DNA of 34,812 nt from assembly GCF_029258315.1 (NCBI RefSeq), contig NZ_JARHZE010000019.1:1-34812 (forward strand). Reading direction: 5' to 3'. Each line of letters opens with the position of its first letter. Position 1 is the stretch's first letter. The position numbers and the translations under genes are program-made. Below the pieces are notes generated by a model. That model was given only the letters and a program-made list of their open reading frames with translations. It was not told the origin of the DNA and ran no database searches. Shown here one piece after another: positions 13,319 to 19,003 of this stretch. This DNA is from Fusobacterium sp. (GTDB lineage Bacteria > Fusobacteriota > Fusobacteriia > Fusobacteriales > Fusobacteriaceae).

Positions 13319-13810
13319 TTACTTTAAATAAATTTTCATCAAAAGGTCTCCTGCTTTTATCTGACCTTTCCCTAAAACTTCTATCTTTTCAACCATATCC
13401 ATAGAAGTAATTATTATTGGAGTTTTAACTGAAGGAGCATTTTCTTTTAAATATGCTAAATCATACTCTATAAGTTTTTCTCCTTTTTTTGCTGTATCAG
13501 ATATTGCTAATCTTTTTAGACCTTTTCCATTTAATTTTACTGTATCTACTCCAAAGTGAACTATCATCTCTAGTCCCTCTTTTGTTTCAATACTTACAGC
13601 ATGGTTTGTATCAAATATATCAATTTGAGCATCTACTGGTGCAAATATCCCCCCTTCACTTGGTTCTATTGCACATCCATCTCCTATCATCTTTTGGGCA
13701 AAAGCCTCATCTGGAACCTCTTCTAAAGTTATAACTGTTCCATTTAATGGTGAATATATTTCCACCACTTTTTCATTTTTAGATTTTTTAAATATATCAA
13801 ATAATCCCAT
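13319..13810 (-). CDS. crr: PTS glucose-type IIA component (IIA-Glc)
   Basis: Cytosolic IIA of the glucose PTS family, 163 aa. It accepts phosphate from HPr and passes it to IIB. The phosphorylated histidine is His85 in MIVHFGVDTVKLNGKG, and the partner is His70 in FDTNHAVSIET, matching His90 and His75 of E. coli IIA-Glc. YSPLNGTVITLEEVPDEAFAQKMIGDG is the standard first half. It lies 13 nt downstream of ptsG in the same operon and ends at the terminator at 13244-13281. In enteric bacteria this protein also regulates other uptake systems; whether it does so here cannot be told. Confidence 0.94.
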   Translation of the reverse strand: MGLFDIFKKSKNEKVVEIYSPLNGTVITLEEVPDEAFAQKMIGDGCAIEPSEGGIFAPVDAQIDIFDTNHAVSIETKEGLEMIVHFGVDTVKLNGKGLKRLAISDTAKKGEKLIEYDLAYLKENAPSVKTPIIITSMDMVEKIEVLGKGQIKAGDLLMKIYLK

Positions 13811-13823
13811 TTTTTCCTCCTAA

Positions 13824-15305
13824 TTAAAGATCTGTCATTTTCTTTAAATCATTACAAATAAATTGAGCTTTTGAACCAAAAATTGCTTGAACTCCATTTT
13901 TTCCAACTTTTAAAACTCCAGATGCACCTAATTTTTTTAACTCTTTATCCTCTACTAAACCTGTATCTTTAACTTCAACTCTAAGTCTTGTTATACAAGC
14001 ATCTAAAGAAACTAGGTTATCTTTTCCACCTAAAGCATTTAATACTCCAACAGCTAATTCTTCCTCTCCTAATTCTACTTTTTCCTCTTCAGTTTTTTTC
14101 TCTCTTCCTGGAGTCATTAAATTGAATTTTCTTATTGCAAATCTAAATCCAAAATAGTAGATAACTGAGAAACAAAGTCCAACTAATACAGCCACATGCC
14201 ATCTTGTTTCAAACCCTTCACTTCCTGGAAGTATTCCAAAAACTATAAAGTCAACCAATCCACCAGAGAAAGTTAAACCTATTCTGATATTAAGAATATT
14301 CATTAACATAAATGCTAATCCTGCAAATAAGCAGTGAACTCCATATAATATAGGAGCAACAAATAGGAATGAAAATTCTAATGGTTCAGTAATTCCTGTT
14401 AAAAATGATGTTAAAGCTGCTGAGAATAAAATTCCTCCAACTAATTTTTTATTTTCTTTTCTTGCTTCGTGATACATTGCTAAAGCTGCACCTGGTAATC
14501 CAAACATCATTATTATAAATTTACCAGTTAAGAATTTTCCAGCTCCTTGATAAGTTGCTGAACTAAAGTTAGTAACTCCGTCTTTTAACATTGCAAACCA
14601 AATTGTTTGGTCCCCTTTTACTATATCTCCAGCTTTATTTATGTACTCTCCAAAATCATACCAGAATGGAGCGTAGAATATATGGTGTAATCCAAATGGA
14701 ATCAATGATCTTTCTACCAAACCAAACATAAATGTTGATATATTTGTATTTCCTTCATTGGCGATATATGATAATTTGGCTAATCCTATTTGGACTGGTT
14801 GCCAGATAGTTGGCATTGCCATTCCAACTAAAAATGCTGTTATTGCTGTCATTATTGGAACTAATCTTTTTCCAGCAAAGAATCCTAAGAATGGTGGTAG
14901 TTCTGTTTTATAAAACTTTTTATAACAGATTGCTGCTATTACCCCAGCTATTAATCCACCAAAAACTCCTGTTTGAAGTGTAGGTATTCCCATTACCATC
15001 GCATACCCTTTATTTCCTGCTTCTATCATAGCTTGAGCATCTGTGATAGTTCCCATAGTAGTGCACATAATTAACAGAGCTACTATTGCTGCTAAACCTG
15101 CAACCCCATCTCCACCAACTAATCCTATCGCTGCCCCCACAGCAAATAATAGTGGTAAGTTTCCAAATATAACCCCTCCAACTTGTTCCATTAAAGGCAT
15201 CTGTAATTTGTTACCAAATGCTAAAAATAGTCCTGCTGCTGGTAAAATAGCAACTGGAGTCATCAACGCTTTTCCAACTTTTTGAATTTCTGCAAATACT
15301 TTCAT
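13824..15305 (-). CDS. ptsG: PTS glucose-type transporter IIBC
   Basis: Membrane-bound IIC permease plus cytosolic IIB domain of the glucose/GlcNAc PTS family, 493 aa from the ATG at 15305. The IIC part has about ten hydrophobic segments, the ERSLIPFGLHHIFYAPFW loop and the GITEPLEF sugar-site motif (about 304-311). IIB follows a charged linker after MTPGREKK; its phosphocysteine is Cys437 in SLDACITRLRVEV. The layout matches PtsG more than NagE, but glucose specificity is inferred. The start is unusual: the frame opens at a GTG at 15335 that overlaps the GGAGGG, and the ATG at 15305 is 29 nt away from it. See the leader element at 15303-15341. Confidence 0.9.
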   Translation of the reverse strand: MKVFAEIQKVGKALMTPVAILPAAGLFLAFGNKLQMPLMEQVGGVIFGNLPLLFAVGAAIGLVGGDGVAGLAAIVALLIMCTTMGTITDAQAMIEAGNKGYAMVMGIPTLQTGVFGGLIAGVIAAICYKKFYKTELPPFLGFFAGKRLVPIMTAITAFLVGMAMPTIWQPVQIGLAKLSYIANEGNTNISTFMFGLVERSLIPFGLHHIFYAPFWYDFGEYINKAGDIVKGDQTIWFAMLKDGVTNFSSATYQGAGKFLTGKFIIMMFGLPGAALAMYHEARKENKKLVGGILFSAALTSFLTGITEPLEFSFLFVAPILYGVHCLFAGLAFMLMNILNIRIGLTFSGGLVDFIVFGILPGSEGFETRWHVAVLVGLCFSVIYYFGFRFAIRKFNLMTPGREKKTEEEKVELGEEELAVGVLNALGGKDNLVSLDACITRLRVEVKDTGLVEDKELKKLGASGVLKVGKNGVQAIFGSKAQFICNDLKKMTDL

Positions 15306-15341
15306 CTCTTTTTTTATGTGAATAAATTCACACACCCTCCT
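15303..15341 (-). promoter_or_regulatory. ptsG start region with hairpin between Shine-Dalgarno and ATG
   Basis: On the minus strand GGAGGG (15340-15335) is followed directly by a hairpin (15334-15315) of 8 bp, including one G-U, with a UUUA loop. Nine nt then lead to the ATG. With the hairpin folded, the effective spacing is 9 nt instead of 29. The core 15332-15317, TGTGA-N6-TCACA, is also an exact match to the E. coli CRP half-site consensus, so it could be a protein site rather than an RNA element. Confidence 0.55.
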
Positions 15342-15421: not shown

Positions 15422-15461
15422 TATTATCACATCTCTAGAAAAAAAGTCAAGTTTTTTTCTA
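15422..15461 (-). promoter_or_regulatory. Promoter of ptsG-crr with inverted repeat over the -35
   Basis: On the minus strand the -35 is TTGACT (15450-15445), followed by GATAAT at 16 nt (15428-15423) or TAATAT at 18 nt. TAGAAAAAAA (15436-15445) and TTTTTTTCTA (15452-15461) are a perfect 10-bp inverted repeat around the core of the -35. The leader is over 100 nt and includes ATAGTAC (15372-15378), also found at the ptsH promoter. Confidence 0.55.
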
Positions 15462-15495
15462 AAAAAATGAGCCTTTTTTTTGCAATATTTTTTTA

Positions 15496-15524
15496 TTGAC
15501 TTTTATAAAATTATATTGTATTAT
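15496..15524 (+). promoter_or_regulatory. Promoter of the Mu-transposase-like gene
   Basis: TTGACT (15496-15501), a 17-nt spacer and TATTAT (15519-15524), about 54 nt before the ATG. Confidence 0.75.
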
Positions 15525-15542
15525 ACAATTGATTATTGTATT
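15515..15542 (+). promoter_or_regulatory. Palindrome and direct repeat at the Mu-like gene promoter
   Basis: ATTGTAT-T-ATACAAT (15515-15529) is a perfect 7-1-7 palindrome that covers the -10. ATTGTATT recurs at 15535-15542, 20 bp further on, nearly two helical turns. This is the shape of an autoregulatory operator; the binding protein is unknown. Confidence 0.5.
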
Positions 15543-15577: not shown

Positions 15578-16684
15578 ATGAATTCACTAGACGAATTAAA
15601 GATAAAAAGATTTAAGATAATTGAGCCTTTTTTGAAAAAAGAAAAAAAATTAAAAGATATTGAAAACGAAACTGGAATTTCTTACGCAACTCTTAAAAGA
15701 TGGACTAAATCTTATAAAGAAAATGGCTTATTTGGTTTAGAAAAAAAAGAACGTGAAGATAAAAACTCTTTCAAAGTCATAGATCAAGAGGGAATTTCAA
15801 TAATAAAAGATCTTTGTTCTAAAGAGAATGAATCAAATATTTCAAAACTATATGAAAGTTGTAAGAATACTTTAAAAGAAAAAGATTATAATATAAGTTA
15901 TCCAACTTTTTATAGAATTTTAAATAATTTAGATGGATTCTTTAAAAAATCTGTATCTTTTCATTTAAATAAAATAAAAAAATCCAATGAAATTTTCTCA
16001 GTTATCGAAATGCCTATCTCTATATTTGTTCAATCTACTAAAGTAGTTGTTCCATCTGTATTATTGCTATTCGATTTATCTGATTTAAAAATTATTCATT
16101 ATTCTTTAAATACAGATCCAACTAATATTTATTCTATTCTTGGATTTATTAAAGAGGCATTATTGAAATTATCTATATTAGAAAATAAATTGATAAAACC
16201 AAAGGAGATTCTTATAGATTCAGAAAATAATACAATAAGTAAATCTATCTCAAAAGAGATATTCAATAAAACTAATATTAAAATTTCTAACTATACATCT
16301 TATGATGAGGAGATTAAAAAATTTGCCACTCTTTTAAATGAAGATTTAAATAAAAACTTTTTTGATAAAGATAAAATTTTCTTAAAAAAAGATGTCGAAG
16401 ATTTTTTAAATCCATATATATATCTAGACAATCAAGATTATAATTTTGAACTTGAATTTAATCTTATAAAAAATTGTGAGTTTTCAAAAGAATTTGATGT
16501 CTTATTACAAAGTACAACTAGAAAAATTTCAGCTTCTAGTTTTAGATTTAAAAACATTATATTTAAATCAAACATTCTAAAATCTCTAGAGGGACAAGAA
16601 GTAGAATTAAAGTTCAACCCCCTAGATCAGAAAAAAATTTATATTTTCTTTAAAAATCAATTTTATGATTTAATAACAACTTAA
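15578..16684 (+). CDS. Mu-transposase-like protein with degenerate catalytic core
   Basis: A 368-aa protein with the domain order of Mu-type DDE transposases. It has an HTH at about 24-54 (KLKDIENETGISYATLKRW), a second helical HTH-like segment at about 85-118, an RNase-H/integrase-like core at about 138-255 and a C-terminal Mu-type beta-barrel at about 305-362 (RKISASSFRFKNIIF, then LEGQEVELKFNPLDQKKIYIFF). By my hand alignment the triad is not intact: the first Asp position is Glu144 (SVIEMP), the second is kept as Asp214 (ILIDSEN), and the final Glu aligns with Lys247 (EEIKKFATLL). No inverted termini, target duplication or partner ATPase gene was seen. It sits between ptsG-crr and ptsHI, so a DNA-binding role is plausible but inferred. 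The ATG at 15578 follows GGGAG. Confidence 0.75.
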   Translation: MNSLDELKIKRFKIIEPFLKKEKKLKDIENETGISYATLKRWTKSYKENGLFGLEKKEREDKNSFKVIDQEGISIIKDLCSKENESNISKLYESCKNTLKEKDYNISYPTFYRILNNLDGFFKKSVSFHLNKIKKSNEIFSVIEMPISIFVQSTKVVVPSVLLLFDLSDLKIIHYSLNTDPTNIYSILGFIKEALLKLSILENKLIKPKEILIDSENNTISKSISKEIFNKTNIKISNYTSYDEEIKKFATLLNEDLNKNFFDKDKIFLKKDVEDFLNPYIYLDNQDYNFELEFNLIKNCEFSKEFDVLLQSTTRKISASSFRFKNIIFKSNILKSLEGQEVELKFNPLDQKKIYIFFKNQFYDLITT

Positions 16685-16905: not shown

Positions 16906-17169
16906 ATGTTATCTAAAACTGTTGTAATTACAAACGAAACTGGGCTTCACACTAGACCTGGAAATGAATTTGTTGGACTAGCTAAAACTTTTAAATCAGT
17001 TATTGAGGTTGAAAATTCTGAAGGGAAAAAAGTTAAGGGAACATCTCTTTTAAAACTTCTTTCTTTAGGTATAAAAAAAGGAACTCAAGTTACTGTCTAT
17101 GCTACTGGAGAAGATGAACAAGAGGCTGTTGATAAACTAGCTGATTTTCTTGTTAATTTAAAAGATTAA
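16906..17169 (+). CDS. ptsH: Phosphocarrier protein HPr
   Basis: Cytosolic HPr, 87 aa, which relays phosphate from enzyme I to the IIA domains. The active His15 is in ETGLHTRPG. Ser47 in GTSLLKLLSLG aligns with the regulatory Ser46 of other HPr proteins, but this segment resembles the enteric KSLFKL form as much as the Firmicute HprK target, so Ser phosphorylation is not established. TGGAGG precedes the ATG. A weak terminator-like hairpin separates it from ptsI, which would allow HPr to be made in excess of enzyme I. Confidence 0.96.
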   Translation: MLSKTVVITNETGLHTRPGNEFVGLAKTFKSVIEVENSEGKKVKGTSLLKLLSLGIKKGTQVTVYATGEDEQEAVDKLADFLVNLKD

Positions 17170-17272: not shown

Positions 17273-19003
17273 ATGAGTAAAATTATTAACGGAATCCCTG
17301 CATCACCTGGAATAGCAATTGGAAAAGTTTTTCTATATAAAGAAAATGAAATTGTTATCAATAAAGATAATATTGAAGATGTTGAAGCTGAAAAAGATAG
17401 ACTTCTTGCTGGAAGAAATGCTTCTAAAGAACAATTATTAATAATAAGAGAAAAAACTGCAAAAAAACTTGGAGAAGATAAGGCAAGTATTTTTGATGGA
17501 CATATCACTTTATTGGAAGATGAAGATTTATTTGATGAAGTTGTAGAACTTATTGAAGATGATAATATAACTGCTGAAAATGCTCTTGAGCAAGGTATTC
17601 AAGGATATTGTGAAATGCTTGGTTGCTTAGAAGATCCTTATTTAAGAGAAAGAGCTGCAGACCTTAAAGATATTGGAAAAAGATGGTTATACAATGTTAC
17701 TGGAACTGCTATATTAGATCTTTCAAATTTACCAAAAGATTCTATTATCATCACTAAAGATCTTACTCCTTCTGACACTGCTCAATTAGATTTAGAAAAT
17801 GTTCTAGCTTTTGTTACTGAAATCGGAGGAAAAACTGCTCACTCATCTATTATGGCAAGATCTTTAGAAATTCCTGCAGTTGTTGGAACTGGTGAACAAT
17901 ATTCTGATGTAAAATCTGGAGATTGTATCATAGTAGATGCCTTAGAAGGAACTGTAATCTTAGATCCTACTGATGAAGAGATTAAAACTTATACAGAAAA
18001 AAGAAATACTTTCTTAGAAGAAAAAGAATTATTAAAACAATTAAAAGATAAAGATGCTGTATCACTTGATGGTAAAAAAGTTAATACTTGGGCAAATATA
18101 GGATCTCCTAAAGATATTGAAGGAGTTTTAAAAAATGGAGCTCAAGGAATTGGACTTTATAGAACTGAATTTTTATTTATGAATAACGACCGTTTCCCTA
18201 GTGAAGATGAACAGTTTGAAGCATACAAAGCAGTTGCTGAGGCTTTAGAAGGAAAACCTGTTACTATCAGAACTATGGATATCGGAGGAGATAAATCTCT
18301 ACCTTATATGGAACTTCCAAAAGAAGACAATCCTTTCTTAGGATGGAGAGCATTAAGAGTTTGTCTTGACAGACCTGAAATTTTAAAAACTCAATTTAGA
18401 GCTTTATTAAGAGCATCTGCTTTTGGTTATATAAAAATTATGTTACCTATGATCATATCTCTAGCTGAAGTTAGAAAATCTAGAGAATTACTTAAAGAGT
18501 GTATGGAAGAATTAAGAGCTGAGGGAGTAGCTTTTGATGAAAATATTCAACTTGGTATAATGGTTGAAACTCCTGCAGTTGCTTTTAGAGCTAGATCTTT
18601 TGCAAAAGAATGTGATTTCTTCTCAATAGGAACTAACGACTTAACTCAATATACTCTTGCAGTTGATAGAGGAAATGAAAAAATTTCTAAACTTTACAAC
18701 TCATACAACCCTGCTGTTCTTCAAGCTATAAAATGTGCTATTGATGGAGCTCACGCTGAAAATATAACAATTTCTATGTGTGGAGAATTTGCTGGAGATG
18801 AAAATGCTACTGCTGTTTTATTTGGTATGGGACTTGATGCTTTCTCAATGTCAGCTATCTCTGTTCCTAGAATAAAAAGAAATATCCTAGCACTTAATAA
18901 AAAAGATTGTGAAGATTTAGTTGAAAGAGTTTTAGATTGTGCAACAGCTGAAGAGGTTATGGAAGAAATTTCTAAATTTAATTCATCTGTTTATAATAAA
19001 TAA
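17273..19003 (+). CDS. ptsI: PTS enzyme I (PEP-protein phosphotransferase)
   Basis: Cytosolic enzyme I, 576 aa, takes phosphate from PEP and transfers it to HPr. The N-terminal HPr-binding and phosphohistidine domains end in GGKTAHSSIMARSLEIPAVVG, with the active His190. The C-terminal PEP-binding barrel shows GIGLYRTEFLFM, the RTMDIGGDKSLPY segment, GIMVETPAV and the FFSIGTNDLTQYTLAVDRGN signature, with the catalytic Cys in SMCGEFAGD. The length is normal. AAGGAAAG with AAGG precedes the ATG. It is the last gene of the ptsHI unit and ends at a strong terminator. Confidence 0.97.
   Translation: MSKIINGIPASPGIAIGKVFLYKENEIVINKDNIEDVEAEKDRLLAGRNASKEQLLIIREKTAKKLGEDKASIFDGHITLLEDEDLFDEVVELIEDDNITAENALEQGIQGYCEMLGCLEDPYLRERAADLKDIGKRWLYNVTGTAILDLSNLPKDSIIITKDLTPSDTAQLDLENVLAFVTEIGGKTAHSSIMARSLEIPAVVGTGEQYSDVKSGDCIIVDALEGTVILDPTDEEIKTYTEKRNTFLEEKELLKQLKDKDAVSLDGKKVNTWANIGSPKDIEGVLKNGAQGIGLYRTEFLFMNNDRFPSEDEQFEAYKAVAEALEGKPVTIRTMDIGGDKSLPYMELPKEDNPFLGWRALRVCLDRPEILKTQFRALLRASAFGYIKIMLPMIISLAEVRKSRELLKECMEELRAEGVAFDENIQLGIMVETPAVAFRARSFAKECDFFSIGTNDLTQYTLAVDRGNEKISKLYNSYNPAVLQAIKCAIDGAHAENITISMCGEFAGDENATAVLFGMGLDAFSMSAISVPRIKRNILALNKKDCEDLVERVLDCATAEEVMEEISKFNSSVYNK

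Follow-up and report, generated by a model that had tools for sequence, protein, structure and literature searches.

Why does a gene with the build of a transposase stand divergent from the sugar uptake genes of a Fusobacterium? The reading frame in question, positions 15578-16684 of contig NZ_JARHZE010000019.1, codes for 368 amino acids in a locus of the phosphotransferase system (PTS). It was analysed within a stretch of 34,812 nucleotides, the window. A sequence-only reading had suggested that a domesticated transposase regulates sugar uptake here. The analysis supports this suggestion, which stood up to each computational check proposed along with it: the catalytic triad is lost, the gene is always PTS-adjacent, flanking repeats are missing and an operator-like motif has been added to the picture. 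With a probability of about 0.85, a domesticated Tn552-type transposase serves as a local regulator of PTS sugar uptake by predicted binding to two sites, O1 and O2.

Protein fold, catalytic positions and selection

The reading frame is a real gene and its genome has no other homologue. The sole label of the protein in public records is 'helix-turn-helix domain-containing protein'. The domain order, a helix-turn-helix (HTH) part, an integrase-like core and a Mu-type C-terminal barrel, had been read correctly: Pfam identified both ends of the protein, and structure prediction with AlphaFold2 and Foldseek the core. The features are:

15578-16684, forward strand: gene of the proposed PTS regulator, a putative domesticated Tn552-type transposase, 368 amino acids
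15605-15754, forward strand: first HTH, residues 10-59 (HTH_28), best conserved across the family
15785-15928, forward strand: second HTH-like helical unit, residues 70-117 (HTH_32 match 38-115 and predicted structure)
15992-16357, forward strand: degenerate RNase-H-like (DDE) core, residues 139-260, with triad positions I143/E144, D214 and K247
16499-16660, forward strand: Mu-transposase C-terminal barrel, residues 308-361 (Pfam Mu-transpos_C)

None of 38 homologues had a Pfam match to an rve or DDE core. The AlphaFold2 model, with the 38 homologues as input, reached a predicted local distance difference test score (pLDDT) of 84.5. It contains an RNase-H-like core in the order strand-strand-strand-helix-strand, followed by the C-terminal barrel. 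Its top Foldseek matches were ShCAST TnsB (E 6.9e-18), Tn7 TnsB, MuA (core, about 1e-6) and IstA. Tn552/TniA transposases aligned with the homologue profile over their full length (388 columns, 99.9%, E 3.9e-35), and BLASTP found 28% identity between Tn552 p480 and the N-terminal part.

In the profile alignment, D166, D240 and E276 of Tn552 correspond to I143 (adjacent to E144), D214 and K247. The hand-aligned triad E144/D214/K247 was right in its last two positions and one residue off in the first. Among the 38 homologues, residue 144 is E, Q, D, T, S, Y or H, residue 214 is D, S, N, A or T, and residue 247 can be almost anything. The aspartate kept here at position 214 is not kept family-wide. 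An intact D-D-E triad was present in none of the 38 homologues by structural and profile alignment, and comparison with the MuA and TnsB folds and with the Tn552/TniA profile bore out the lost triad of the sequence-only reading. The same holds for the missing transposon ends and partner ATPase. No terminal inverted repeats were found flanking the gene, and the annotated and predicted neighbours do not include an adjacent AAA ATPase (TniB/p271), which adjoins the Tn552/TniA comparators. A second copy is missing in the genome, and the neighbourhood is fixed and not mobile-like.

Of 61 Fusobacteriaceae genomes, 44 carry the gene. Haliovirgaceae have homologues too, and the rest of the genomes searched across the phylum Fusobacteriota have none. 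A genome-contig scan for homologues outside the phylum gave Cetobacterium only, and the plasmid and phage sequences searched otherwise held only Tn552-like transposases. Genomes carry one or a few copies; within the genus, each genome has a single Mu-transpos_C protein. Set against nine Tn552-like transposases, the homologues group as a single clade (100/100), which is deeply divided into the ptsG-type copies on one side and the ptsH/ptsI-type copies plus two crr-type copies on the other. The copies of this second group (six loci) have a C-terminal extension past the barrel, which the ptsG-type copies lack. The omega of the whole gene was 0.03-0.15 in close pairs and low in all domains. The gene is under purifying selection, including the degenerate core.

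PTS neighbourhood

The PTS genes of the window are:

13319-13810, reverse strand: crr-like gene for PTS IIA, neighbour of ptsG
13824-15305, reverse strand: ptsG-like gene for the PTS IICB permease, conserved as the divergent neighbour (possible alternative start: GTG at 15335)
16906-17169, forward strand: ptsH (HPr), a downstream neighbour only here among close relatives
17273-19003, forward strand: ptsI (EI), likewise a downstream neighbour only here

Flanking DNA was available for about 50 loci, and in every one of them the gene and a PTS gene stand divergent to each other. The loci come from two families and no fewer than 10 genera; two C-terminal fragments, located at the ends of contigs, told nothing about the neighbourhood. 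The divergent partner is ptsG in most loci, crr followed by ptsG in some, and ptsH/ptsI in a paralogous lineage. For the window, the position of the gene had been described correctly, with ptsG-crr on the divergent side and ptsH-ptsI downstream. For the family, the PTS link stood and no scatter of homologues was seen, but it is ptsG (crr or ptsH/ptsI for the paralogues), not ptsHI, that is conserved as the partner. As a conserved partner of the window's copy, ptsH/ptsI was rejected: it adjoins the gene only in this genome among close relatives, whereas ptsG is constant. The adjacency of ptsH-ptsI in the window is incidental.

Genome G062 has three copies of the gene, each beside its own ptsG paralogue (77, 55 and 49% identical to the ptsG of the window). 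The third copy is broken by stop codons, yet still divergent from the third paralogue. The gene is missing from 17 genomes of the family. A ptsG orthologue of about 76% identity is present in three of these (G011, G023 and G031); in the others, no ptsG exceeds 49% identity.

Operator-like motif

A 23-bp motif, TTTCAAAAWAAWTGAGCCTTTTT, has two copies in the window, O1 and O2. The sites and the promoters around them are:

15423-15450, reverse strand: ptsG promoter, TTGACT-16-GATAAT with TG before the -10 box, read from the sequence; spacing from its -35 box to O1 conserved
15456-15479, forward strand: O1, conserved operator-like site TTTCTAAAAAAATGAGCCTTTTTT between the divergent promoters
15496-15524, forward strand: promoter of the regulator gene, TTGACT-17-TATTAT, read from the sequence
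15610-15633, forward strand: O2, second motif copy inside the coding sequence, in the codons for FKIIEPFL, with conservation at the codon level

O1 is located 5 bp from the -35 box of ptsG and 16 bp from that of the regulator gene. Across the divergent intergenic regions, the consensus is TTTTCAAAAWAAATGAGCCTTTTTT, adjoining GTCAA, the ptsG -35 box on the opposite strand. The core [AT]TGAGC[CT] was present on the forward strand in 33 of 36 non-redundant regions; in Markov shuffles the count averaged 0.6 and never exceeded 3. Relaxed by one base, the motif was found in 35/36 regions, and in 34 of the 35 the distance to GTCAA was 21-24 bp. It occurs beside crr-type and ptsH-type loci too, and it is absent upstream of ptsG in all three genomes that have a ptsG orthologue without the regulator (L076-L078). 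The motif therefore follows the regulator. A conserved divergent target pair and an operator-like site co-distributed with the gene are features of a divergent local regulator, and both were found. Two loci carry an extra copy, TTTGAGCYTTTTTT, directly before the -35 box of the regulator gene.

O2 occupies codons 12-19 (FKIIEPFL; TTY AAA ATA ATT GAG CCT TTT TT). The Glu16 codon is GAG in 24 of 28 rows, against a background of 26% GAG among Glu codons, and the Pro17 codon is CCT in 29 of 35 rows. None of the other Glu or Pro columns examined has a comparable bias. Two serine columns reach the same score or exceed it, perhaps owing to the division of the serine codons into two blocks. At the position of Glu16, Lys, Gln or Arg is found in Tn552-type transposases and in the ptsH/ptsI-type paralogues; the Glu codon, by which TGAGCC becomes complete, is therefore probably a derived state. 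In six loci, a reverse-oriented TTTGAGCTTYTTT lies in the coding sequence at about +64 to +70 and involves a rare CTC Leu codon; with O2, it makes an inverted pair in some genera. One locus, L017 (genome G030), has an apparent frameshift in the T-run of O2, either a sequencing error or real.

At up to 3 mismatches, the 23-mer matched only O1 and O2 in the organism's own genome, without further sites for a wider regulon; a reversed control pattern gave 1 match. A matrix trained on 34 O1 sites, which included the O1 of the window and not O2, scored 31.1 for O1, 24.0 for O2 and 9.4 for the next site in the window. This third match (13854-13875) was dismissed as far weaker and lying within the ptsG coding sequence. 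The AAA and AAT forms of the motif are almost confined to the locus genome-wide (27/30 for AAATGAGCCTTTTT and 28/33 for AATTGAGCCTTTTT, hand tally). Matches of the TTTTGAGCC type are mostly away from it and look like chance.

Other roles for DNA elements in the region were considered. The motif is not a general promoter element, as its AAA and AAT forms fall almost only at this locus. Nor does it act as an intrinsic terminator: the copies checked have no upstream hairpin partner, and the region has no terminator-like site. The consensus promoter claimed for the gene exists at 15496-15524, but chance alone gives many such matches in DNA this rich in AT (18 in the region, against 14.4 expected). 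The palindrome TTGTATTATACAA exists as well, at 15516-15528. It is unconserved even in a relative with 70% identity, which rules it out as the operator, and O1 and O2 take its place. At the 5' end of ptsG, a perfect CRP-type inverted repeat, TGTGA-N6-TCACA, is located at 15317-15332; only the nearest relative has a similar one, not the rest of the family.

Proposed regulation, alternatives and known systems

An ancestor of Fusobacteriaceae and Haliovirgaceae probably domesticated a Tn552/TniA-type DDE transposase as a local regulator of glucose-type sugar uptake. The N-terminal DNA-recognition part with its HTH units, the overall fold and the C-terminal barrel would have been kept, the triad and the partner ATPase lost. 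Transposases of the MuA/TnsB type recognise their ends by N-terminal HTH-type domains. The protein would bind a site of about 23 bp, TTTCAAAAWAAWTGAGCCTTTTT, a size that fits two HTH contacts. At O1, upstream of the ptsG -35 box, it would activate ptsG(-crr) by contact with RNA polymerase. At O2, past its own start codon, it would most likely limit its own transcription, through O2 alone or through O2 paired with O1 in the way that transposases bring their two ends together. The signal could be a sugar or the phosphorylation state of the PTS; PTS sensing is plausible because the gene is constantly paired with a PTS permease or ptsH/ptsI. Activation with self-limitation is preferred because O1 has an activator position for ptsG and O2 lies downstream of the regulator's promoter. 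Judged from these positions, activation of ptsG is the most likely mode, favoured over repression at about 65:35. A more tentative idea is that the whole inactive transposase still pairs two end-like sites, and that a former transposition synapse might have turned into a regulatory loop for sugar uptake.

Several observations weigh against regulation through O1 and O2. One homologue (L031) lacks O1, exact O2 is degraded or lost in some Cetobacterium members, and the ptsH/ptsI-type copies do not have O2. The helical phasing test of O1 and O2 gave p ~0.06. The comparison with genomes that lack the gene but have a close ptsG covered only three, and the position of O1 suggests activation of ptsG, short of proof.

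The same protein and sites could instead repress ptsG, by bridging O1 and O2 or by blocking polymerase from O1 until the PTS signals sugar. The two sites flank the regulator's own promoter, a common layout of looping repressors. This is the less likely mode, as O1 is located upstream of the ptsG -35 box at a near-constant distance and without promoter overlap, which is typical of activators, and O2 is not kept in every lineage that keeps O1. That another regulator binds the motif, while the transposase-derived protein has for example a structural or nucleoid role, is improbable. The binding of the protein to the motif is a prediction, which leaves room for such a binder. However, the motif is found at crr-type and ptsH-type copies and inside the gene, ptsG lacks it in genomes that lack the gene, and no part of the protein is better conserved than the HTH. 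A plain transposase, active or decaying, that came to the PTS locus by chance would explain the sequence and the fold. It would hardly explain low omega in all domains or a neighbourhood shared by 10 or more genera, and the broken triad, the missing ends and ATPase and the single copy per genome in the genus make it very unlikely.

Domesticated local regulation by O1 and O2 is the preferred reading. The closest known proteins are Tn552 p480 and TniA of the Mu/TnsB superfamily (Staphylococcus, Enterococcus and Tn402-like elements), with HTH, core and barrel aligned over the full length. Unlike these, the protein here has no D-D-E, adjacent ATPase or resolvase-like recombinase; it is shorter, not multi-copy and vertically kept beside PTS genes. 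TnsB and MuA share the predicted fold, but have the catalytic residues and element ends that are missing here. TldR proteins are bacterial RNA-guided transcription regulators that arose from TnpB (PMC13418256). They are alike in being bacterial regulators derived from a transposon protein after loss of catalysis; here the source is a DDE transposase that brings HTH domains of its own. A RuvC fold or guide RNA of the TldR type was not found: the best folds are TnsB and MuA, and the only Rfam match in the window is a tRNA. FHY3/FAR1 and other eukaryotic transcription factors derive from DDE transposases (PMC13306707). FHY3/FAR1 are Mutator-type plant proteins, whereas this one is Tn552-type, bacterial and located beside PTS genes. 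SfsB, related to Ner of phage Mu (PMC8987985), is a further mobile-element DNA-binding protein recruited to bacterial sugar-gene control; its source is a phage repressor and not a transposase. A bacterial regulator derived from a DDE transposase was not found in the literature searched, with most subscription journals outside its reach.

The family is widespread in Fusobacteriaceae and appears to control a main sugar-uptake system, with a predicted 23-bp operator of which one copy is written into the regulator's own coding sequence. The route from transposase to regulator is opened to direct tests, in which living relatives that are still transposases (Tn552) can serve for comparison.
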